64,000 nucleotides of DNA from Methanolobus bombayensis (GTDB lineage: Archaea; Halobacteriota; Methanosarcinia; Methanosarcinales; Methanosarcinaceae), in NCBI RefSeq assembly GCF_017873415.1, contig NZ_JAGGKD010000003.1:248001-312000 (forward strand). The letters run 5' to 3'. The stretch's first letter is position 1. Every line of letters begins with the position of its first letter. Position numbers and translations under genes: made by a program. The notes under the pieces were generated by a model that was not told the DNA's origin, did no database searches, and was given only the letters and a program-made list of their open reading frames with translations. Shown here in pieces: positions 27,280-39,770 of this stretch.

Positions 27280-27636
27280 ATGGTAAAAGTAATGATTGTG
27301 GATGATGCTGCCTTCATGCGCATGGTCATCAAAGACATATTAACAAAAAATGGTCATGAAGTGGTTGCCGAATGTGTTGACGGGCTTGATGCCGTAAACA
27401 AATATCCGGAAGTTAAACCGGAACTGGTCTTCATGGATATTGTTATGCCAAACATGGAAGGAATAGATGCACTTAAGAAGATCATGGAGATGGATCCTGG
27501 TGCAAAAGTTGTCATGTGTTCATCCATAGGACAGCAGTCAGTTGTCACAGATGCACTCAAAACAGGAGCACTTGACTTTATAGTTAAGCCTTTTGATGCA
27601 GCAAAGGTTCTCGAAGTAATTGGAAAAGTAATGTAA
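27280..27636 (+). CDS. cheY: CheY, chemotaxis response regulator
   Basis: Single receiver domain of 118 residues that carries the phosphoryl signal from CheA to the archaellum motor, in archaea through CheF-type adaptors. The acidic pocket is D8-D9, the phospho-Asp is D53 in FMDIVMPNMEG, followed by the CSSIGQ Ser/Thr switch and KPF lysine. ATG 27280 gives the compact domain; the upstream in-frame start at 27229 falls in the palindrome. First gene of the che operon, one base from cheB. Confidence 0.93.
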   Translation: MVKVMIVDDAAFMRMVIKDILTKNGHEVVAECVDGLDAVNKYPEVKPELVFMDIVMPNMEGIDALKKIMEMDPGAKVVMCSSIGQQSVVTDALKTGALDFIVKPFDAAKVLEVIGKVM

Positions 27637-27637
27637 C

Positions 27638-28747
27638 ATGACTATAAATGCACTTGTAGTCGATGACTCCGCACTCATGCGAAAGGTCGTCTCGGATATC
27701 CTGAAACAAGACCCGGAAATAAACGTAATAGCTACGGCCAGGAACGGTCTTGAAGCTGTTGAAAAGGTCGAACAGTTCAGGCCGGATGTGGTGACCTTGG
27801 ATATTGAGATGCCTGTACTTGACGGATTGCACGCTCTTGGATATATCATGAGTGAGTGCCCTACTCCAGTAGTCATGTTAACGGCGGTCGACTCCAGGTC
27901 TGCGGAAAGTACACTAAATGCATTCGAATATGGGGCAGTAGACTTTATACAAAAACCTTCGGGAAATATCAGTGTAAACATTGAGGACATCGCCGACAAT
28001 ATTCGCAAAAAAGTAAAGATGGCATCAAAAGTGGATCTGAAGAAACTAGGATTCATGGAAGAACACGTGAAAATTTCACGTGAGAAGAAGAGCAAACCAT
28101 TGCCATCCAAACCAAAGAGAAGAGTTGCTACAAAGAGTGCGGTTCATCATGCAAATGGTAAGATCGTTGCCATAGCATCCTCTACAGGTGGTCCTCGTGC
28201 TCTTGAACAGGTAGTTCCTAAATTACCAGGGAACCTGAAAGTTCCCGTAGTGATCGTCCAGCACATGCCTGCCGGATTTACTGCATCACTGGCACAGAGA
28301 TTAGACGGACAGTCTGCATTAACGGTCACCGAAGCAAAAGAAGGAGACGTACTTCATCCGGGACATGTCTACCTTGCGCCGGGAAATTATCACATGGAGA
28401 TCAAATCCACTGAAAAAGGTGGAATTTACCATGAGGTAGTAACACTTAATCAAAAACCCCGTGAACAGGGGGTCAGGCCCTGTGCAAACATCCTTTTCAG
28501 ATCACTTGTACCAATCTACGGAGCTAACATAGTCTCAGCGATCCTGACCGGAATGGGAGCTGACGGTGCCGATGGTGTGGAAGAGATAAAGAAAGCAGGA
28601 GGAAAAGTAATCACTGAAGATGAACGGTCATGTGTGGTATATGGTATGCCAAAAGCAGTCGTTCAGAGAGGACTTGCAGACAGCATTGTACCTCTGGAGA
28701 AAGTCTCCTCCGAAATAGTACGAATGCTGAATTCATCCGGTGATTAA
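27638..28747 (+). CDS. cheB: CheB, chemotaxis methylesterase/deamidase
   Basis: Removes methyl groups from chemoreceptors and deamidates them. 369 residues: receiver (1-120, phospho-Asp D55 in TLDIEMPVLDG), a basic linker (about 145-170) and the methylesterase domain. Catalytic residues are visible as Ser182 in ASSTGGPRAL, His209 in VQHMPAGF and the Asp of LTGMGADGADG. The ATG is one base after cheY stop. All catalytic residues are kept, so it should be active on receptors coded elsewhere. Confidence 0.96.
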   Translation: MTINALVVDDSALMRKVVSDILKQDPEINVIATARNGLEAVEKVEQFRPDVVTLDIEMPVLDGLHALGYIMSECPTPVVMLTAVDSRSAESTLNAFEYGAVDFIQKPSGNISVNIEDIADNIRKKVKMASKVDLKKLGFMEEHVKISREKKSKPLPSKPKRRVATKSAVHHANGKIVAIASSTGGPRALEQVVPKLPGNLKVPVVIVQHMPAGFTASLAQRLDGQSALTVTEAKEGDVLHPGHVYLAPGNYHMEIKSTEKGGIYHEVVTLNQKPREQGVRPCANILFRSLVPIYGANIVSAILTGMGADGADGVEEIKKAGGKVITEDERSCVVYGMPKAVVQRGLADSIVPLEKVSSEIVRMLNSSGD

Positions 28748-28798
28748 AATGTGTTTGGAAAATGTGAAGATCAGTATGATCTCAGGGTTGGTGTGACC

Positions 28799-30871
28799 AT
28801 GGATATGTCAGAATACAAAGAAATATTTAAAGCAGAATCAGAAGAACATCTGCAACAGCTTAACGATTCATTACTGGGACTTGAACAGAATCCCAATGAA
28901 CTTGAATACATCAATACAATGTTCCGTTCTGCACATACCTTGAAAGGAATGTCAGCAACGATGGGTTTTAACACCATTTCAGAACTCACTCATGAAATGG
29001 AAAACCTGATGGACATGGTAAGAAAATCGCAGGTAGAAGTGAGCAACAGTTTAATAGATATTCTGTTTGAATGCCTTGACACCCTCGAGGCACTTGTTGA
29101 AACCGTAGATAGTGAAGAAGAAGTGGACATTGGTCATCTTCAGGCAACACTTACACAGGCTATGGAAGGTTCAATGCCTGTGCAGGACATTAAAGGATCA
29201 GTAGCTTCAAGCATAGATACTATTGAAAATGAGATAAGTAAGGAAATACCAGAGGTACCTGAAGCAGAAGAAAACGAATCAAAGCCAGAGATTGTCCCTG
29301 TTGCAGATGATATAGAGTTATCTGATAATGATAAAAAAGCAATAAAGGAAGCTGTTAACGAAGGAAATCGTATTGTTTCAATGAAAGTAATCCTGGACGA
29401 ATCTTGTGTTCTGAAGTCTGCAAGGTCAACTCTTGTACTTATCAATGTTTCCAAGATGGGAGAAATAATAAAGTGTGTCCCTACGGAAGCAGAGCTTGAA
29501 GACGAGAAATTCGATCTTGACTTTACTGTAATATTTGCAACTAAATCTGCTGATGAAGATATAGTTGGCACAATAAAGAAGATATCGGAGATCAAGGACG
29601 TAATTCCTTCAACAATTGCAGAAAGTGATGGTAAACAGGAAGCAAAGAAAGAAAATGAAGAGAAGGAAGACTCAGAAGCTAAGAAAAGCAATTCAGCTGT
29701 AAAAAGACCTGATGCTGTCAAGAGCATTCAGAGTGTCAGGGTCAATATAGAGCGTCTTGATAATCTGATGAACCTTGTTGGAGAACTTATTATCAATAAG
29801 ATCCGACTTAACCAGCTTGCTTCCGATCTTAATGCAAAGGATCTGGACGAATCACTTGCAAACCTTGACCGCCTTACCAATGAGATCCAGACCGAAGTAA
29901 TGGAATCAAGAATGGTTCCTATCGACCAGATATTCAGCAGATTCCCGAGAATGGTCAGGGATCTTGCAAAGTCCGAAGGTAAGCAGATCAATCTTATTAT
30001 TGAAGGTAAGGAAATCGAACTTGACAGGACAGTGCTGGACGAGATAGGTGACCCATTGGTACACCTGCTCAGAAATGCTGTAGACCACGGTATCGAATCC
30101 GAGAAAGAACGTAAGGAACTGGGTAAACCTCCGGCAGGTATGGTTAGACTGGCGGCTTCACGTCAGAGAAACAGTGTACTAATTGAGGTTGAGGATGACG
30201 GTAAGGGAATGGATCCCGCTCATCTTAGAGATATAGCTGTAAAGAAAGGCATTATGACAAGAGATGAGGTTGACAAATTATCTGACAATGATGCCCTGAA
30301 CCTGATATTTATGCCTGGTTTCAGCGGAGCTAAGGTCGTTACCGACATTTCAGGAAGAGGTGTCGGAATGGATGCTGTCAAGACAAAGATTGAAGCACTT
30401 GGTGGAAGCGTAAAGATCAGTTCCGTGGTAGGCCAGGGCAGTATAATGAAACTACAACTGCCACTTACAGTTGCCATCATTCAATCACTCATGGTCACTG
30501 TGACCGGTGAAACATACGCAATACCTCTGGGTAATGTGATCCGTGATGTAGGAATAAAAGCCAGTGACATAAAAACAATAGAAGGAAAAGAAGTGATCAT
30601 GCTCAGGGGTGAAGTACTACCACTGTTAAGACTGCATGATGTACTTGAATGTCCTACTGAAGAGGAAGAAAAACAGAATCTCATTGTTGTGGTTGTTGAA
30701 AAGATGGGAAGCAACATAGGATTGGTAGTTGACGAACTCCTCGGTCAGCAGGAAGTAATCATCAAATCACTTGATAATAAACTTTTGAAAAACATGAAAG
30801 GATTTGCAGGTGCGACTATACTTGGAGATGGAAGTGTCGCACTGATCCTTGATATTGCTACATTGATCTAA
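28799..30871 (+). CDS. cheA: CheA, chemotaxis histidine kinase
   Basis: Central kinase, about 690 residues. P1 domain with the phospho-His H46 in SAHTLKG. P2-like region near 185-285 for CheY/CheB docking. A charged linker rich in Lys and Glu follows. Dimerisation P3 begins near NLVGELIINKIRL. ATPase P4 has the N box HLLRNAVDHGIE, G1 DDGKGMD and G2 GRGVGMDAV. P5 is the CheW-like regulatory domain. ATG 28799 matches the usual CheA start (MDMSEYKEIF); GTG 28751 upstream is an alternative. No cheW lies nearby. Confidence 0.95.
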   Translation: MDMSEYKEIFKAESEEHLQQLNDSLLGLEQNPNELEYINTMFRSAHTLKGMSATMGFNTISELTHEMENLMDMVRKSQVEVSNSLIDILFECLDTLEALVETVDSEEEVDIGHLQATLTQAMEGSMPVQDIKGSVASSIDTIENEISKEIPEVPEAEENESKPEIVPVADDIELSDNDKKAIKEAVNEGNRIVSMKVILDESCVLKSARSTLVLINVSKMGEIIKCVPTEAELEDEKFDLDFTVIFATKSADEDIVGTIKKISEIKDVIPSTIAESDGKQEAKKENEEKEDSEAKKSNSAVKRPDAVKSIQSVRVNIERLDNLMNLVGELIINKIRLNQLASDLNAKDLDESLANLDRLTNEIQTEVMESRMVPIDQIFSRFPRMVRDLAKSEGKQINLIIEGKEIELDRTVLDEIGDPLVHLLRNAVDHGIESEKERKELGKPPAGMVRLAASRQRNSVLIEVEDDGKGMDPAHLRDIAVKKGIMTRDEVDKLSDNDALNLIFMPGFSGAKVVTDISGRGVGMDAVKTKIEALGGSVKISSVVGQGSIMKLQLPLTVAIIQSLMVTVTGETYAIPLGNVIRDVGIKASDIKTIEGKEVIMLRGEVLPLLRLHDVLECPTEEEEKQNLIVVVVEKMGSNIGLVVDELLGQQEVIIKSLDNKLLKNMKGFAGATILGDGSVALILDIATLI

Positions 30872-30885
30872 AATGAGGGAATAAT

Positions 30886-31503
30886 ATGGCGGAAATGGAC
30901 GAGATGGCAAAAGGAGCATTTCAGGAGGCTGGAAACATTGGAATGGGACATCTGGCCACATCACTTTCTAAAATGGTGAACAGGGATGTGAAAATAGACA
31001 TTCCTGTGGTTGAAATGCTCAGCCTTGATGACATAATAGCAAAAAGCAATGTAGAAGGGAAAAATAAGAGTGTTGTTGGAATACATCTTCATATTACAGG
31101 AGACGTATCCGGAGGAACGCTCATACTACTTCCAAAATTCTCTGCACTGTCTTTTTCAGATCTTCTTATGAAAAAGCCAATAGGAACAACAAATAAAATT
31201 GAAGAACAACAGGTTAAAAAACTCCGTGAAATGGGAGTAAATCTCTGTAGTGCCTACATGCGTGTTGTCAATGAATTCCTGGGAATAAATCTCAGCATTG
31301 GAGATCCAAGCATGGAAGTCAACCTGGAAGGTGTAGGTGACTTCATTCAGAAAGAGATTGGAGAACTTGCCGATGAATTCATCGTTGTAAAAGGTGAATG
31401 TCTGATACCTTCTACAAACTCAAAGAACGAATTTAACATGCTTTTCGAACCCGGAGCTACAGATATAATTATGGCAGCTATCATGAAGAAGATGATGGGA
31501 TAA
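30886..31503 (+). CDS. cheC: CheC paralogue 1 (first phosphatase site intact, second altered)
   Basis: CheC/CheX/FliY-family CheY-P phosphatase-like protein, 205 residues. The first ExxN site is intact at E14/N17 (QEAGNIGMG). At the second helix the pattern is REMGVN, so the Asn position is Val118 and the site is probably dead. Encoded between cheA and the FtsA-like gene, with 14 bases to cheA and one base to the next gene. Likely a phosphatase with one active centre or a scaffold for CheD. Confidence 0.85.
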   Translation: MAEMDEMAKGAFQEAGNIGMGHLATSLSKMVNRDVKIDIPVVEMLSLDDIIAKSNVEGKNKSVVGIHLHITGDVSGGTLILLPKFSALSFSDLLMKKPIGTTNKIEEQQVKKLREMGVNLCSAYMRVVNEFLGINLSIGDPSMEVNLEGVGDFIQKEIGELADEFIVVKGECLIPSTNSKNEFNMLFEPGATDIIMAAIMKKMMG

Positions 31504-31504
31504 A

Positions 31505-33625
31505 ATGAACATTGCCCATTTTGCTCTGGATATAGGAACAAGAACTGTTGTGGGACTTGTCACAGAAGATGGGGACCTCAACATAAAAGCTGCATGTGTT
31601 AAAGAGCACAATGAGCGCAGCATGCAGGATGGGCAGATCCATGATGTCGAAAAGGTTGCAAAAGTTGTAGATGAGGTCAGAAAAGATCTGGAAAAACAAA
31701 CAGGATCAAAATTATCCAAAGTAGCAGTGGCCGTTGCAGGCAGAGCACTTAAGACATCCAAGGTAAAAGTTTCAGTTGAGATGCCTTACAGGGAAATTAG
31801 CCGTGAGGACATTTCTGAACTGGAATTTGAAGCTGTTGCAAGAGCTGGCAATCAACTTGGTAGTGGAAAGGGTTTTAATTGTGTTGGTTACTCGGTTATA
31901 AGCTACGAACTTGATGGAGAAGGTATTTCCAATATAGTCGGACAAAAAGGAAGTTCGGTTTCTGTGGAAGTGCTTGCTACTTTTCTTCCGGAAGCTGTTA
32001 TCAGCAGTATGTTTGCCGTACTTGACAGATGTGGCCTTGAAGCATCAAGTGTTACACTTGAACCAATAGCAGCTCTTAATGTCGCTATTCCCTCTGATAT
32101 GCGCAAACTCAATATTGCGCTTGTAGATATCGGCGCCGGAACATCTGATATTGCCATTACGGATAATGGAACAGTGATAGGCTATGGAATGGTCCCTGAG
32201 GCAGGGGATGAAATTACTGATTTTATCTGTGACTATTATCTTGTTGATTTCAAGAAAGGAGAAAACATCAAACGTTCCCTGAACGATATGGAAATGATCG
32301 AGCTGGAAGATATTTTTGGTGTTACAACTGAAATACCGGTAAGCCAGGTAATTAGTGATATTGAAGCTGAAATTGACAAACTGTCACAGCATATTGCTGA
32401 AGAGATCCTTACAATTAATAACAAAAAACCGAGTGCTGTGGCTCTGGTCGGAGGTGGATCACAAACCGCAGGACTTAAAGAACATTTATCGAAACATCTT
32501 GATATACCAGTACAGAGAATCGGGTCACGTCTTCCAAAGCAGATAGAAGGACTGGCTGATGGCACCGGAATGGTCAACGGTGCAGACATGATAACTCCAC
32601 TTGGCATAGCACGCATGGCTATCCTTGATGAAGGAATCGAATTTATTGAACTGAATGTCAATGGTCTGGAAATACACCTGATGGACATAAACGGTCTTTC
32701 TGTCATGGATGCACTTGTGGCTGCAAAGGTCACACGCCTTTATCCGCGTCCTGGTATGGCCCTTAGCCTTACTGTCAATTCAGATTTCAGGACAGTTGAA
32801 GGTGACATGGGAGTGCATGCAAAGATACTGCTTAATGGAAAGAAAGCAAGTCTTGGAGATCCGGTAATAAATGGTTCTTCCATTGAATTCACAGCACCTG
32901 TTGACGGTAAAGATGCACATCTTAAAGTGAAAGACCTCATGGAGATCGAGGGAACAAAAAGCGTGCACAGGATAAATGTCAATGGAAACGAGAAAGAGTT
33001 CAGACCTTTTATCAGTATCAATGGCAAACCAGCATCTTTTGAAGATACAATACCTGACAGATCAGAGGTGATAATCCGTGCACCAAATCTTGAAGACGTA
33101 CTTGAGATGGAATACGGACACGAAGAAAATGAAATGATCTCTGTGACCGTGAACAATAAACCAAGGTATCTGAACAGGATAAATTACACATTCAGATTGA
33201 ATGGCGATGTAGTGGAGAGAGATAAGCTTCATGAATGTCATGTAAGTGATGATGACATAATTATTATTGAAAAATCAGTGTTTGAATACAGAATAGAAAA
33301 CGTTCTTGGCAAACCTGAAGAAGGCAAAAGGATCAGTGTACTTCTCAATGGTGATGAAGTTACATTCGACGGATCAGTGCCCCAAATTGTCCTCAATGGA
33401 AAAAGGGCATCTCTTTTTGATAAGATAAATGATGGAGATAACATCATATTTAAAATGGGGGAGGATGCGGACCCGATACTTTCGGATCTGTTCGAATTTA
33501 TGGATATTAAAAAGGAAGAACTTGTTGGCAAGAGAATGAGACTTCTTGTGAACAATGTTCCGGCCAGATTTACAACCCCACTGAGGGATGGAAACAATGT
33601 GACAATAGAATTTGCAGAGGTATAA
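31505..33625 (+). CDS. FtsA/PilM-type actin-fold ATPase with five C-terminal beta-grasp-like repeats
   Basis: A 706-residue protein of the actin/Hsp70 ATPase superfamily. PHOSPHATE1 is ALDIGTRTVVGLV (7-19), PHOSPHATE2 is LVDIGAGTSDIAI (206-218) and ADENOSINE is ALVGGGSQTAGLKEHL (313-328). An SHS2-like insertion precedes PHOSPHATE2, as in FtsA and PilM. Residues about 437-706 hold five units of the form LNGKxAxLxDxIxDGDxIxF (near 437, 502, 562, 627 and 678), resembling ThiS/ubiquitin-type beta-grasp repeats. No membrane helix. Such long FtsA-domain proteins are, from memory, typical of anaerobic Firmicutes. The gene lies one base after cheC1 and three before cheR, so it belongs to the chemotaxis operon. 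Role unknown. Confidence 0.85.
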   Translation: MNIAHFALDIGTRTVVGLVTEDGDLNIKAACVKEHNERSMQDGQIHDVEKVAKVVDEVRKDLEKQTGSKLSKVAVAVAGRALKTSKVKVSVEMPYREISREDISELEFEAVARAGNQLGSGKGFNCVGYSVISYELDGEGISNIVGQKGSSVSVEVLATFLPEAVISSMFAVLDRCGLEASSVTLEPIAALNVAIPSDMRKLNIALVDIGAGTSDIAITDNGTVIGYGMVPEAGDEITDFICDYYLVDFKKGENIKRSLNDMEMIELEDIFGVTTEIPVSQVISDIEAEIDKLSQHIAEEILTINNKKPSAVALVGGGSQTAGLKEHLSKHLDIPVQRIGSRLPKQIEGLADGTGMVNGADMITPLGIARMAILDEGIEFIELNVNGLEIHLMDINGLSVMDALVAAKVTRLYPRPGMALSLTVNSDFRTVEGDMGVHAKILLNGKKASLGDPVINGSSIEFTAPVDGKDAHLKVKDLMEIEGTKSVHRINVNGNEKEFRPFISINGKPASFEDTIPDRSEVIIRAPNLEDVLEMEYGHEENEMISVTVNNKPRYLNRINYTFRLNGDVVERDKLHECHVSDDDIIIIEKSVFEYRIENVLGKPEEGKRISVLLNGDEVTFDGSVPQIVLNGKRASLFDKINDGDNIIFKMGEDADPILSDLFEFMDIKKEELVGKRMRLLVNNVPARFTTPLRDGNNVTIEFAEV

Positions 33626-33628
33626 AAA

Positions 33629-34453
33629 ATGTTAAAACCTGTTGAGAAAAAAGATGATGAGTACTACCAGACACTGAAAAACCTTATCCAGAAAAATCTT
33701 GGATTCAACTCAAACCAGTACAAGGATTCTCACTTTAAAAGGAGGATAGATGTCAGATTGCGCGCAACAAATACCAGTACATACAAAGAGTATGTGGAAT
33801 TGCTGCAAAGTGATCGAAACGAATATCCTGAGCTTATGGAAACACTGACAGTTAATGTTACCAACTTCTTCAGGAATCCTGAAGTCTATGATATTGTAGA
33901 AAAGGAAATACTTCCAGCCATCATCAAATCGAAAACAGGTGGCCTGCGTTCCATAAGAATATGGAGTGCCGGATGTTCCATCGGTGTTGAAGCATATTCC
34001 CTGGCCATGCTTTTCCATAACTTACTTGGAAAAGAATTCGGCAAATATAACATCAAGATAACCGGAACAGACATTGATAGAGAAAGTCTTCTAAAAGCCC
34101 AGAGTGGCGTTTATTCTGAAGCAGAAATGAAAGATGTAAGACCTGCTTTCCTTAAAAAATATTTTACAAAAGAAGAAGGTAAATACCTCATTTCAGATGA
34201 ACTCAAGAAGATTACTCAATTTAAAAAGCAGGATTTAATATCAGGTCCGAAAATGAGCGGATTTGATGCTGTATTCTGTAGAAATGTCACAATTTACTTC
34301 CAGAAAGAATTGCAGGAGCAACTCTATATGGACTTTTACAACGCCCTTGGAAAAGACGGATTCTTTGTGATGGGTAAGACAGAGACACTTATAGGACCGT
34401 CAAAAGACAAATTCAAATCATACAATTCCAAGGAGAGAATCTACCAGAAATGA
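33629..34453 (+). CDS. cheR: CheR, chemotaxis methyltransferase
   Basis: SAM-dependent methyltransferase that methylates receptor glutamates. 274 residues with the N-terminal helical domain (FKRRIDVRLRATN, TVNVTNFFRN) and the C-terminal SAM domain. The SAM motif reads WSAGCSIGVEAYSLAM where the usual form is GCSTGEEPYS, so three positions differ. TGTDID and FCRNVTIYF are otherwise standard. Three bases after the FtsA-like gene. Probably active, though the motif drift deserves note. Confidence 0.92.
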   Translation: MLKPVEKKDDEYYQTLKNLIQKNLGFNSNQYKDSHFKRRIDVRLRATNTSTYKEYVELLQSDRNEYPELMETLTVNVTNFFRNPEVYDIVEKEILPAIIKSKTGGLRSIRIWSAGCSIGVEAYSLAMLFHNLLGKEFGKYNIKITGTDIDRESLLKAQSGVYSEAEMKDVRPAFLKKYFTKEEGKYLISDELKKITQFKKQDLISGPKMSGFDAVFCRNVTIYFQKELQEQLYMDFYNALGKDGFFVMGKTETLIGPSKDKFKSYNSKERIYQK

Positions 34454-34503: not shown

Positions 34504-35118
34504 ATGAAATATAAGATATCAAACCTGACCGAAATGCAGGTGAGTGCCTTAAGGGAAATTGTGAACATTGGAGTTGGGAACGCTGTTACCTCGCTTTCAA
34601 AAATGATAGAAACAGGAGTTAAGATAGAGGTTCCTGATTTTAAAGTAGAGTTGATCGAAGATGTTCCGGAGGTGCTGGGAGGACCTGCTAATGTTGTATC
34701 AGGCGTCATCATGCAGGTCACAGGTGATATCGACGGCTACATCATAATGATGCTTCCTGAAGAAGCAGCCCGGACAATTTGTGAAATAATAACACATGAA
34801 GAGAACACGGATATTCTGACTCCTATAAACCAATCACTGATTGAAGAAGTCGGACATATCCTGGCAGGCTCGTATGTAAGTTCATTGTCTGATTTTCTGA
34901 GTCTGAATATTAAGATTTCAACACCAATGCAGACATTTGACATGCTCGGTGCCATCATAGACCATATATTGATCGAAATGAGCCAGAAAGTAGAGTATGC
35001 ACTTCTTTTTGACACATTGTTCATACTCCAGGGCGATAGAACAGATGGATTTTTCCTTACGATGTTCGATCCTGATTCCATGGATACTATAATCGGGCGT
35101 GTTGATAAAATGATCTGA
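34504..35118 (+). CDS. cheC: CheC paralogue 2 (second site Asn replaced by His)
   Basis: CheC-family protein of 204 residues. The first site is intact (E18/N21 in LREIVNIGVG). The second is E115-V-G-H118 where Asn is expected, so only one functional phosphatase centre is predicted. The strand segment VTGDIDGYIIMMLP is typical of the family. Located 50 bases after cheR and 14 bases before cheC3. Confidence 0.86.
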   Translation: MKYKISNLTEMQVSALREIVNIGVGNAVTSLSKMIETGVKIEVPDFKVELIEDVPEVLGGPANVVSGVIMQVTGDIDGYIIMMLPEEAARTICEIITHEENTDILTPINQSLIEEVGHILAGSYVSSLSDFLSLNIKISTPMQTFDMLGAIIDHILIEMSQKVEYALLFDTLFILQGDRTDGFFLTMFDPDSMDTIIGRVDKMI

Positions 35119-35132
35119 CAGGAGAGATATGA

Positions 35133-35744
35133 ATGAATATAGTACTTGATAAGTTCTACTATGATGCACTGAATGAAGTGGGAAACATAGGAATGGGGAA
35201 TGCAACAACCGCACTATCACAGCTTGTAAGCAAGAGGATAGAGGTTAGTGGCTCGTCCCTGACTTTGCTTAAAGCCAAGGATATTGCCGAGAACCAGAAT
35301 GATGAGAGGGTCGGAGCTATAGTCAGAGTAATGGGGGATATGAATGGAGGATTCATACTTGTTCTTGGCAAGAAACAATCTGAAATTCTGGCTGATATGC
35401 TTCTTGAAGATAGTTCCGGTGAAGATACTTACATGAAAATATCAGCTTTTATTGAAGTTGCTAATATACTTGCAGGTAGTTACTATAATTCACTCTCAAA
35501 ATTCCTTAATCTTTCAATAATACCTTCAATACCCACAATATCTGAAGGTGATTCAGATGAGATATTCGAAAAAGCAAAAAAACATATGAGCGGTAAGATA
35601 GACCATATCTTTGGCCTGACAACATTATTTGAGATCCATGGTGAGGATGAGTACCACAGTTTGAGCGGAGATATGTACATGCTCCTGGATACAGCTTCTT
35701 TGCAGTCAATTATCGACAGGATAGAAGAGATGCGTACGAGATAA
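35133..35744 (+). CDS. cheC: CheC paralogue 3 (both phosphatase sites intact)
   Basis: CheC of 203 residues with both ExxN sites present: E15/N18 (NEVGNIGMG) and E108/N111 (IEVANILAG). This is the only one of four copies here with two full sites, so it is the best candidate for the main CheY-P phosphatase. It directly precedes cheD (2-base gap), its known regulatory partner. Ribosome site AGGAGAG precedes ATG 35133. Confidence 0.9.
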   Translation: MNIVLDKFYYDALNEVGNIGMGNATTALSQLVSKRIEVSGSSLTLLKAKDIAENQNDERVGAIVRVMGDMNGGFILVLGKKQSEILADMLLEDSSGEDTYMKISAFIEVANILAGSYYNSLSKFLNLSIIPSIPTISEGDSDEIFEKAKKHMSGKIDHIFGLTTLFEIHGEDEYHSLSGDMYMLLDTASLQSIIDRIEEMRTR

Positions 35745-35746
35745 AT

Positions 35747-36220
35747 ATGATAATAGTGGGAATGGCTGACAGCGCTGTTGTAAAAAAACCTGAAAAGCTC
35801 ACCACCCTCGGCCTGGGATCCTGTGTGGGTATTTCATTATATGATAAAAGTACAGGTGTTGGCGGCATGGTGCATATTATGCTTCCAAGCATAGAGAGTG
35901 CAAGATCAAAGGAAAACATTGCAAAATTTGCAGATACAGGTATCCCTTCACTTGTTGATGACATGGTGGATGCAGGTGCATATAAACATCGCACCACTGC
36001 CAAAATAGCTGGTGGTGCAAGCATGTTCTCATTCAATTCAAATACCCAGCTCAATATTGGGGAAAGAAACGTAACAGCTACTAAAAATACATTGGATGGA
36101 CTGAAAATACCCATTGTTGCTGAAGATACCGGACAGAACTATGGACGTACTATTGTGCTTGACACTGAAAACGGAGAACTTACTGTCAAGAGCGCACTTA
36201 AAGGTATAAAAATATATTAA
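35747..36220 (+). CDS. cheD: CheD, receptor deamidase and CheC activator
   Basis: Deamidates chemoreceptor glutamines and binds CheC to stimulate its phosphatase activity. 157 residues. The catalytic Cys26 lies in LGLGSCVGISLYD and His43 in GMVHIMLP, with the third residue of the triad in the RTTAKIAGGA region. Directly behind cheC3. All recognisable catalytic positions are kept. Confidence 0.94.
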   Translation: MIIVGMADSAVVKKPEKLTTLGLGSCVGISLYDKSTGVGGMVHIMLPSIESARSKENIAKFADTGIPSLVDDMVDAGAYKHRTTAKIAGGASMFSFNSNTQLNIGERNVTATKNTLDGLKIPIVAEDTGQNYGRTIVLDTENGELTVKSALKGIKIY

Positions 36221-36271: not shown

Positions 36272-37303
36272 ATGTTAACTCCGGAAATAACTCTAACACA
36301 TATCATTTTTGTATCCATATCATTAGCTTGTGGATTGGCAGCTATATACTTCTGGGTGAAGGTTTATTTTGAAACTAAAAAAGGATCTATTGCCTGGTTA
36401 CTTCTTGCACTTACAGCCATTTTCCTTATAACTTCTTCAATATTCCCATCAATTGCTATTAGCTCCCAGGATACAGATATTACTGAAATGGTATTCCTTT
36501 TCCTCGGTTTCTGGAGTGCTGTGTACACCAGTATATTTGCAGCAGCCGGTTTTTTGATGTTCCAGGCATTTAAGACAATTCCCCGGGAAAATCTTGGAAA
36601 TTTCCTGATAGAAGGAATGGTATTTACAAAACCAGTCAAGGCAGAAGATGACATGGAAGAACTGCCGGAAGTAGAACAGGTATCTACACTTCTCAACAGG
36701 TCCACACTTATCGAATACACTCCTAAAACCAGATACGAGGATTCCGTAATAGAGATATGCCTTCGTCTTTACGGTGAAATGGTGAATACTGTGTTGGTAT
36801 CTACACAACCGCGTACTGAAATGTACAAGGAGAAGATCGGAGACCTGATGGATATAGGCGCAATGAAGTTTATTGAAATATCCTCTACAACTAAACATGT
36901 TAATGATGAGGATGGAATAATCAAGTTACCTTCAGATGAGATGGGGAAATTCTTTGAACTCACAAGTAAGCTGCCTGAAGGATGTGCGGTTATCTTTGAA
37001 CCTATAACCCAATTGATACTTACAGATGGAGAACAAAAGACCTATGAATTCATTTCTGAAATGGTAGAGCGTTTCTCTGCCAGCCAATTACTTCTTGTGG
37101 GCATGATCAACAAAGAAGCTCATGACGATCAAACAGTTTCAAGGTTTGAAGGACTTTTCCTTAATCTGGCTGAAGAAAAGGATGCTAAGATCCGTGTTGT
37201 AAAAGGTGGAAAGGAAGAGTACGTAAGATTCTACGTTGGAGAGAAATTCTTCATGGAACAGGATGTAGAGGTAATACTTGAAGAAAAAAAGGTTGAGTTT
37301 TAA
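36272..37303 (+). CDS. Three-helix membrane protein with cytoplasmic signalling-like domain
   Basis: A 343-residue protein. Three hydrophobic helices at about 8-29, 39-58 and 70-95, with an acidic linker near 125-140. The cytoplasmic part (about 145-343) begins STLIEYTPKTRYEDS and has VLVSTQPRT and a CAVIFEPITQLIL strand, which recalls P-loop-less KaiC/RecA-like domains of archaeal signalling proteins; the family is not certain. The ATG follows AGGTGA, 51 bases after cheD. It shares the TAATG overlap with cheC4, so it is a true operon member. It might localise the che proteins to the membrane. Confidence 0.65.
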   Translation: MLTPEITLTHIIFVSISLACGLAAIYFWVKVYFETKKGSIAWLLLALTAIFLITSSIFPSIAISSQDTDITEMVFLFLGFWSAVYTSIFAAAGFLMFQAFKTIPRENLGNFLIEGMVFTKPVKAEDDMEELPEVEQVSTLLNRSTLIEYTPKTRYEDSVIEICLRLYGEMVNTVLVSTQPRTEMYKEKIGDLMDIGAMKFIEISSTTKHVNDEDGIIKLPSDEMGKFFELTSKLPEGCAVIFEPITQLILTDGEQKTYEFISEMVERFSASQLLLVGMINKEAHDDQTVSRFEGLFLNLAEEKDAKIRVVKGGKEEYVRFYVGEKFFMEQDVEVILEEKKVEF

Positions 37304-37929
37304 TGGACAGACAGCTTGACAATTTCCTGACCGATGCATTCAAGGAAATCGGCAGTATAGGCATGGGAAATGCTACTACATCCCTTTCTAAACTCATTGA
37401 GAAAAGGGTGCAGTTGAATCTTTCCGACGCACGTTTGTTTGAACCTTCTGCCATTGTTGATATGATACCCGACTCAATAACAATGACAAGTATTATGATT
37501 CCGGTACATGGAGATCTTAATGGTCTTACAATGTTGCTTTTTGAGTTTGGTAATGCTGTTTATCTTAGTAATCTGCTGCTCCAGAGTATTGAACATGATG
37601 ATGATCCGAGTATCTATGAATCAGCACTACTTGAAACAGGAAACATTATTGCCGGATCCTACCTGAACTCCCTTTCATCATTCCTTAACCTCAAGATAAT
37701 GCATTCAGTCCCGGATATTAGTATCGGTACAATTGATGACATACTGGAAAAAGGGCTCAATAAGATGCAGGAAGAACCTGAGGGAATACTGAATATTGAA
37801 ACAATGTTCATGGTCTACTCCTCAGAAAAGGATGTTGGAGCTGGTACTATCTATGGAGATATGTTCTTGCTGCTGGATTCAGAATCACTTGACAGGATGC
37901 AGAATTCCATACAGGACATGTTGAAATGA
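37303..37929 (+). CDS. cheC: CheC paralogue 4 (first site Asn replaced by Ser)
   Basis: CheC-family protein of 208 residues. The first site is E15-I-G-S18, so the Asn is lost; the second is intact at E111/N114 (LETGNIIAG). It is thus the mirror image of copies 1 and 2. The start overlaps the stop of the membrane protein gene (TAATG), pointing to coupled synthesis of the two. Confidence 0.86.
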   Translation: MDRQLDNFLTDAFKEIGSIGMGNATTSLSKLIEKRVQLNLSDARLFEPSAIVDMIPDSITMTSIMIPVHGDLNGLTMLLFEFGNAVYLSNLLLQSIEHDDDPSIYESALLETGNIIAGSYLNSLSSFLNLKIMHSVPDISIGTIDDILEKGLNKMQEEPEGILNIETMFMVYSSEKDVGAGTIYGDMFLLLDSESLDRMQNSIQDMLK

Positions 37930-37966
37930 ATTCCTAATTATTAATCAGATCTTACGGTTGAACTAT

Positions 37967-38413
37967 ATGAAAAATATCTGGACTTATCATCTGGAAAAAT
38001 CCAACGCCAATGACAATGATGGCGATAGTACATTCTCACAGATGCTCCATTCGTTTGTAAGAACAGGAAATGATGAGAAGATGCATACAGGCATTTCCAT
38101 GGGGATCTCACAAAAGAATAAAAATACTGGTAATATTGATGTCAACAAAGCAGAAACCCAATTATGTACCTGGATGGCAGAAAGTCATGAAGCATACGAA
38201 CTCGGAATAGATTCATCTAAAAGAGACAGTGTACGGCTTATTATGGCTGAAGATGGAGGATTATCCCTCAGATATGATGTGGCTGGAGAAACACCTTTTG
38301 AAATGTCAGTAAGATCTGAAGAAGAAGCCATGGATATTATCGAGGAAGATAATGCCACTACTGAACAGCTTTATCCGGATAATCCGGAACTAAAGTGGAT
38401 TAAAATAACATAA
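37967..38413 (+). CDS. Small acidic protein, unknown, end of che operon
   Basis: A 148-residue soluble acidic protein, not recognised. The first 60 residues are polar and probably flexible (NANDNDGDST). The second half (about 95-148) looks folded, with GGLSLRYDVAG, and ends in PDNPELKWIKIT. It follows cheC4 by 37 bases with no obvious terminator between, so it may be part of the operon. ATG 37967 is preferred to the in-frame start at 37958; the ribosome site is weak. Confidence 0.5.
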   Translation: MKNIWTYHLEKSNANDNDGDSTFSQMLHSFVRTGNDEKMHTGISMGISQKNKNTGNIDVNKAETQLCTWMAESHEAYELGIDSSKRDSVRLIMAEDGGLSLRYDVAGETPFEMSVRSEEEAMDIIEEDNATTEQLYPDNPELKWIKIT

Positions 38414-38527: not shown

Positions 38528-39154
38528 ATGATGGACATTGCAATTTACTCACTTGTTGATGACATGGTCAGCAAGGCCGGCACTGAGGGTGTCGTTGAAT
38601 ACTGGCTTCGTGTAGGTGAGAGCTATGCAGAAAGAATGGGAAAAGAAGCATATGTAGGATGGCCTGCCTTTAATGTAGCAATGAAGGATGGAAGAACATC
38701 ACTTACAGTTGAAGGTGCTGTTAATGTCCAGACTGACCTTGCTATAACTGACAAGGATGGGGATGTCATTGGTTATGTCTATGCTTTAAAAGTGTGCCCA
38801 ATGGCACCTACCATGGGAAGATACATTTCAAGGATCGGACCGATACCTGACTCTGACACCGATGTAGCAGACAGCTACAATAACCGTGTAAGAGATTCAG
38901 CTGTTTCAAATTACTGCATTACCCACCAGAAATTCAGGGAAGTTGCAGCTAATAACATTACCGTTGCAAAGCAGGCTCTTGAATGCCTTCATCTTGCAAA
39001 CAAGGGAATGACCGGTGAAGTGAAAATGGTACAGGAAAACCTTGCAAGGATAAATGTGGATGAGAGACACATTAAAAGTATTCTGCGCAATGCTTCCTGC
39101 GTGTTCGCACTTATTGTGAAGGGCAAGAGTGCAGGCGAGGAAATAATTGACTGA
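38528..39154 (+). CDS. Cys/His-motif protein, paralogue A (unknown function)
   Basis: A 208-residue soluble protein paralogous to the next gene. The shared core is VCP near residue 89, YISRIG, then SAVSNYCITHQKFR near 126-139 and a late SC near 190. The spaced Cys and His residues suggest a bound metal, haem or other cofactor. There is a loose likeness to ATC-hydrolase-type folds (CP ... C..H), not enough to name it. Two adjacent ATG codons (38528, 38531) follow AAAGGAGAT. Its stop is 10 bases before paralogue B. Position after the che operon hints at a signalling or sensing role. Confidence 0.6.
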   Translation: MMDIAIYSLVDDMVSKAGTEGVVEYWLRVGESYAERMGKEAYVGWPAFNVAMKDGRTSLTVEGAVNVQTDLAITDKDGDVIGYVYALKVCPMAPTMGRYISRIGPIPDSDTDVADSYNNRVRDSAVSNYCITHQKFREVAANNITVAKQALECLHLANKGMTGEVKMVQENLARINVDERHIKSILRNASCVFALIVKGKSAGEEIID

Positions 39155-39164
39155 TGGTGATCAT

Positions 39165-39770
39165 ATGGCTGAAAATATAGAATCCAATCCTTTTGTCGAT
39201 GTTTCAGTATATCTGTTCTTTGAGGATATTTCTGATAAACAGGGTGTTGAAGGTTTCACCAATTACATGGTTGGCCAGGCCGAATCACTGGCTAAATCTG
39301 TCCCTGAGGAAGAATACCAGACATGGGATGATTTTGCAAATGCCGTTACGAACGGTGAATCTGTCCTATCATCTTTTGAACATATAGGACAGATCAGCAA
39401 ATATGGTTTTGTTACAAAGGTATGCCCATTTTCCAAAGCTATTAGAGAATATATAAAAAGAATAGGTAACTTCAACCCGGTTCACATGGAAGCAACCGAT
39501 CATTTCAATCACACCATACAGCCTTCCGCTGCACACAGTGCATGTATGATGCACCAGACTTACCGTAAGGAAGTAGCTAAGAGAATAAAGATCGGAGGGA
39601 AACCACTCCAGTATGCTCAGATAGCAGCAAAGGCATACACCGGAAAGATAGCACTTCCTCCTGAATCATGGAAGAAGGTATTACTGGAAAAAGCAGGAAT
39701 TACCGAAACCCAGGGATTCATGGAAATGAGGGAGAACAGCTGTCTGTATCTTCTTTACGTTGAAGAATAA
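39165..39770 (+). CDS. Cys/His-motif protein, paralogue B (unknown function)
   Basis: A 201-residue paralogue of the preceding gene, sharing KVCP, YIKRIG, D-x-F-N, SAAHSACMMHQTYR and AKAYTG. Cysteines and the HQ pair align with paralogue A, while the rest has diverged strongly, so the pair is an old duplication that has kept the same putative binding site. ATG 39165 follows GGTGATC; the longer frame from TTG 39147 overlaps the upstream stop. No known family assigned. Confidence 0.6.
   Translation: MAENIESNPFVDVSVYLFFEDISDKQGVEGFTNYMVGQAESLAKSVPEEEYQTWDDFANAVTNGESVLSSFEHIGQISKYGFVTKVCPFSKAIREYIKRIGNFNPVHMEATDHFNHTIQPSAAHSACMMHQTYRKEVAKRIKIGGKPLQYAQIAAKAYTGKIALPPESWKKVLLEKAGITETQGFMEMRENSCLYLLYVEE

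Follow-up and report, generated by a model that had tools for sequence, protein, structure and literature searches.

An FtsA/PilM-type actin-fold protein with tandem beta-grasp repeats in the Methanolobus chemotaxis operon and its association with CheA in Bacillota

What might a protein resembling FtsA and PilM be doing in the chemotaxis operon of an archaeon? The question is raised by a 64,000-nucleotide stretch of Methanolobus bombayensis DNA (here the window; contig NZ_JAGGKD010000003.1, positions 248,001–312,000), in which an open reading frame at 31505–33625 on the + strand encodes a protein of 706 amino acids; we refer to this protein and to its family as X. A sequence-only reading had placed the gene one base past cheC1 and three bases ahead of cheR, and the coordinates bear this out, with the cheC1 stop codon ending at 31503, the X ATG at 31505, the X stop codon ending at 33625 and the cheR ATG at 33629. 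The operon, all on the + strand, includes cheY (27280–27636; Pfam Response_reg 1.1e-27), cheB (27638–28747), cheA (28751–30871) and, directly upstream of X, cheC1 (30886–31503; Pfam CheC 9.8e-7), and continues directly downstream of X with cheR (33629–34453; clustering with Pfam-confirmed Bacillota CheR), cheC2 (34504–35118; CheC 5.6e-19), cheC3 (35133–35744; CheC 8.5e-16), cheD (35747–36220), a gene for a 343-aa protein whose N-terminal part is hydrophobic (36272–37303) and cheC4 (37303–37929; CheC 4.8e-14), where cheB, cheA and cheD are conserved operon members named from sequence. Expression of X together with the signalling proteins of this operon is very likely. Using the ORF list and Pfam, no pilN or pilO neighbour was identified in the window and no pilus or archaellum gene in the operon.

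Several other features of the operon may be recorded here. There are four cheC paralogues between 30886 and 37929, none of the identified genes is a cheW, and cheC3 lacks a counterpart in the operons examined from other genera. The 343-aa protein and a 151-aa protein (37958–38413) are kept in the operon of several genera and neither has a Pfam match over cut-off, while the operon is closed by two adjacent and mutually similar proteins of ~208 aa (38528–39770) which match no Pfam family and share 78–99% identity across the Methanosarcinaceae, above most Che proteins of the operon.

The sequence-only reading had recognised three actin-superfamily nucleotide motifs in X, and all three proved invariant in an alignment of 35 archaeal and Bacillota homologues: LDIGTR at residues 8–13 (L8, D9, G11, T12 and R13 being the invariant positions), LxDxGAGTSDI at residues 206–216 and GGG at residues 316–318. 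The signature MQDGQIHD is likewise invariant from Methanolobus to the Bacillota. Residues 1–370 (31505–32614, +) match the Pfam families PilM_2 (1.8e-11), FtsA (3.4e-9) and MreB (2.7e-8), of which PilM_2 is the best match and exceeds its cut-off. We built an AlphaFold2 model of X from the 35 homologues (mean pLDDT 84.6), and Foldseek placed FtsA first amongst its PDB matches (7q6i, E 9e-29) and PilM second (E 5.6e-21), followed by EutJ and MreB, with DnaK also below FtsA and PilM. With the phosphate and adenosine motifs present and the fold matched, residues 1–370 are, on profile and model evidence, an FtsA/PilM-type actin-fold domain, in agreement with the earlier suggestion, and would be expected to bind a nucleotide. 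The gene is under purifying selection (dN/dS ~0.1).

We considered whether X might be FtsA proper, as the whole of its actin domain aligns with that of FtsA. However, X scores 118.7 bits (3.1e-34) with the NCBIfam ftsA model (TIGR01174), below the cut-off of 175.85, and the last element of the X model is a strand (residues 698–705) where FtsA has its C-terminal amphipathic membrane helix; we therefore reject this identity. X also differs from FtsA in having about 330 extra beta-grasp residues, and most of the Bacillota X hosts checked have, besides X, another and shorter FtsA-like frame of about 400–490 codons. The likeness to PilM, the type IV pilus platform, is found in the PilM_2 score and in the PilM structures matched by the model, but X reaches only 63 bits against the 133 required by NCBIfam pilM and has no PilN or PilO neighbours identified.

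The C-terminal part of X (residues 371–706; 32615–33622, +) had been described from the sequence as five beta-grasp-like repeats, and this description has held. The units lie at about residues 376–466, 467–527, 528–592, 593–652 and 653–706, each of about 55–90 residues, and all ten pairs amongst them match in HHalign with 96.5–99% probability. Pfam ThiS matches the C-terminal part in 27 of 30 X family members (best 7.3e-14), and a separate model of this part (pLDDT 84.4) finds a bacterial multi-ubiquitin protein in Foldseek (9cd2, a weak match at E 8e-5) and, weakly, ThiS 3cwi and SAMP1 3po0. Profile comparison and modelling agree that these are five homologous tandem beta-grasp (ThiS/ubiquitin-like) repeats, the number of which differs among the Bacillota members, judging by alignment gaps. 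Unlike the tandem ubiquitin-like proteins, ThiS and SAMP1, X has no terminal Gly-Gly, and its repeats are fused to an actin-fold domain; they are therefore probably a binding arm rather than a conjugated modifier.

X is found in nearly all of the Methanolobus genomes compared and also in a single genome (G003) from a sister genus, and the full-length frames in relatives within the genus share 58–84% identity. In a broader draw of the Halobacteriota, X was present in 10 of 247 genomes, all of them from the genus of the window, and in none of the other 237. The order cheY–cheB–cheA–cheC–X–cheR is kept in all 26 archaeal loci examined, and free-standing homologues outside che operons, which would speak against the proposed link, were not seen amongst them. 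In three other genera (g9, g11 and g12) the operon is the same except that X is missing and a short spacer lies between cheC and cheR. Two Methanolobus genomes gave no match to X: one of these (G048, locus L192) otherwise keeps the operon, as in the three genera, and the other (G054) has no operon-type cheR and only a weaker cheR match within a much longer frame. In a further genome (G051), an in-frame internal deletion joins X residues about 104 and 600 and leaves 216 residues, though this is a draft assembly and an error is possible. X is accordingly an accessory component, missing from the operon in three related genera and one Methanolobus genome and deleted in another, and as the archaeal operon exists without it, X is not essential to chemotaxis.

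A phylogenetic tree of 94 X sequences placed all 27 archaeal sequences in one clade with a support of 100 and a long stem, nested among Bacillota lineages whose branches around it form a polytomy. Because the archaeal sequences make up a single clade within a deep Bacillota family, the tree supports the transfer of one copy of X from the Bacillota to the ancestor of Methanolobus, in keeping with the Firmicutes-like donor proposed earlier. Co-transfer of cheR with X was considered and rejected: in a CheR tree the archaeal CheR tracks its own archaeal lineage and falls outside the clade of Bacillota CheR proteins encoded next to X. As there is no sign in this tree of the archaeal cheR having arrived with X, the X–cheR pairing probably arose separately in archaea and Bacillota. 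Archaeal occurrence of such a protein deserves comment as FtsA-family proteins are reported to be almost absent from this domain, with a survey of 150 archaea finding FtsA homologues in the Methanopyri only (PMC8178401). Like X, the Methanopyri homologue is an archaeal member of the FtsA family for which transfer from bacteria has been proposed (PMC8178401).

The link to chemotaxis becomes much stronger than the operon alone could make it when the Bacillota are considered. Our sample comprised 199 genomes, partly draft, from one draw of the phylum (a second draw returned almost the same genomes and was not counted), and among these X was found in 112, CheA in 167, SpoIVA in 172, FliG in 170 and PilN in 108. 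Both X and CheA were present in 111 genomes, X alone in one, CheA alone in 56 and neither in 31 (p = 4e-12, relatedness ignored), such that CheA accompanies X in 111/112 genomes compared with 56/87 of those lacking X, and X occurs in only one of the 32 genomes without CheA. The association is also seen within sporulating genomes, where CheA is present in 106/107 with X and 49/65 without (p = 6e-7, relatedness ignored). Three other partners were considered and set aside: a link to sporulation vanishes given CheA (CheA-positive genomes, p = 0.11, relatedness ignored), FliG as a marker of flagella adds nothing given CheA (p = 0.30, relatedness ignored) with four genomes having X and CheA and no FliG match, and PilN as a marker of type IV pili is found in 67/111 CheA-positive genomes with X and 32/56 without (p = 0.74, relatedness ignored). 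In two genomes lacking a FliG match (G208 and G356; loci L230 and L231) there is a cheA–cheW–cheC–cheD cluster, and in G208 the genes topA–trmFO–xerC–codY are followed directly by cheY–cheA–cheW–cheC–cheD (names from sequence); these two genomes have apparently lost their flagellar genes and kept the chemosensory ones.

This association was re-examined with relatedness taken into account on one SpoIVA gene tree of 80 genomes, rebuilt on 79, which includes 14 tips without CheA. The absence of CheA is scattered over this tree by about ten changes, of which supported branches force at least seven. Of the 14 CheA-negative tips, one carries X, compared with 6.3 expected (P = 0.002). The fit also improves when the gain and loss of X are modelled as dependent on CheA (likelihood-ratio test, p = 0.002). 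PilN, used as a control, shows a weaker dependence on CheA (p = 0.02) and is found at 3/14 CheA-negative tips, and for this reason part of the phylogenetic signal is probably owed to reduced or incomplete genomes. The co-occurrence of X with CheA nevertheless exceeds that explained by phylogeny, and genomics links X to chemotaxis. As X is found almost only in Bacillota genomes with chemotaxis genes, the family probably assists or organises the chemotaxis machinery, a role not recognised before.

The neighbourhoods of 91 Bacillota X loci are varied and lie mostly outside che operons proper, with no che genes alongside X at most of them. In 11 of the 91, cheR (confirmed by Pfam) is directly upstream of X on the same strand, usually preceded by heme-synthesis genes and in three cases separated from X by a gap of about 590 bases holding only a small antisense ORF; in a twelfth locus, cheR and X are separated by one gene. 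Seven of the genomes with the cheR–X pair have no cheR in the DNA up to about 10 kb from cheA, and so the X-adjacent gene may be the chemotaxis system's own cheR in these genomes, with this reading limited to the stretches near cheA. At three other loci (L148, L157 and L244), an mreBCD–pbp–minCDE cluster holds X, with minE upstream of it and a rodA-like gene downstream (MinE assigned by Pfam and the other genes from sequence or cluster), and at a further six (L129, L130, L132, L137, L139 and L240) a flagellar basal-body rod gene and a WecG/TagA-type glycosyltransferase gene are just upstream of X, with an mreB-like gene preceding both in at least some of these.

We read X as a chemotaxis-associated actin-family ATPase which most likely serves signalling proteins as a scaffold or as a factor that positions them. 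We tentatively favour, at somewhat less than even confidence, a family derived from the Bacillota which works with the chemosensory system through a nucleotide-driven actin fold and a beta-grasp arm holding Che proteins. In such a mechanism, the nucleotide-bound actin-fold part would behave like FtsA and PilM and either self-assemble, perhaps as filaments, or dock on a partner. The beta-grasp arm would bind chemotaxis proteins, with CheR and CheC or the array as the likeliest clients; signalling or adaptation proteins would as a result be held by X at the array or cell pole. ATPases of another fold are known to position chemosensory arrays, namely ParC in Vibrio and MinD4/MinD2 in Haloferax (PMC5706961, PMC11588486), and X may be the actin-family counterpart of the ParA/MinD-family ATPases ParC and MinD4. 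The likeness is restricted to the proposed job of an NTPase organising the chemotaxis machinery, as the ParA/MinD (Walker) fold and the actin fold of X share no homology.

Other readings of X place it closer to one chemotaxis enzyme or further from chemotaxis altogether. It might act as a PilM-like peptide-binding docking protein that brings CheR (or CheC/CheD) to the receptors, the repeats contacting the receptor or array, and would then neither form filaments nor place arrays. This would be in keeping with the binding of a PilN peptide by PilM, which has a related fold (PilM:PilN structures are among the Foldseek matches), and with cheR being the only che gene to adjoin X in both Bacillota and Methanolobus, the more so if the two pairings had separate origins. 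However, there is no cheR near X at most Bacillota loci, the adjacency in Methanolobus is weak evidence because X touches cheC as well, and related archaea keep the operon, cheR included, without X; we regard an adaptor of this kind as rather improbable, though the most credible of the alternatives. That X is an FtsA/MreB-like morphogenetic protein, associated with chemotaxis only indirectly as motile rod-shaped cells retain both, we consider unlikely: the minCDE–X–rodA order and the six loci in which X accompanies the flagellar rod gene and the glycosyltransferase gene, with mreB ahead of these in at least some, would fit a role in cell shape or division, but the near-constant presence of CheA, the dependence of X on CheA on the tree, the separate FtsA-like frame in most Bacillota genomes checked and the confinement of the archaeal loci to the che operon all argue against it.

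Still less probable is a role like that of PilM, as a platform on which type IV pili or the archaellum would be assembled. In favour of it are the kinship of the archaellum with type IV pili, PilM_2 as the best Pfam match and PilM as the second fold match, but X is independent of PilN in CheA-positive genomes and the operon has no identified pilus or archaellum genes. The results for CheA and PilN speak against both the morphogenetic and the pilus readings. The missing or damaged X in a few Methanolobus genomes might even be taken to mean that the transferred gene is a passenger of the operon which plays no part in the chemotaxis of the archaeon; we think this very unlikely, as the gene is under purifying selection, nearly every Methanolobus genome retains it, and X is tied to chemotaxis in the donor phylum as well.

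If the preferred reading of X is right, the known components of chemotaxis would come to include an actin-family ATPase, and its gene is a common one in the Bacillota (112 of the 199 genomes sampled). The literature searched holds no described family like X, although absence there is not proof. A bolder version, which we put forward as doubtful, is that X forms ATP-driven actin-family polymers with ubiquitin-like arms which organise arrays or the enzymes of adaptation in over half of the Bacillota sampled, with a single move into archaea. If true, this would represent a new cytoskeletal class for chemotaxis, with the same job done elsewhere in archaea by MinD-family ATPases. The Bacillota copies and the natural pairs of archaea with and without X make the function of the protein directly testable.
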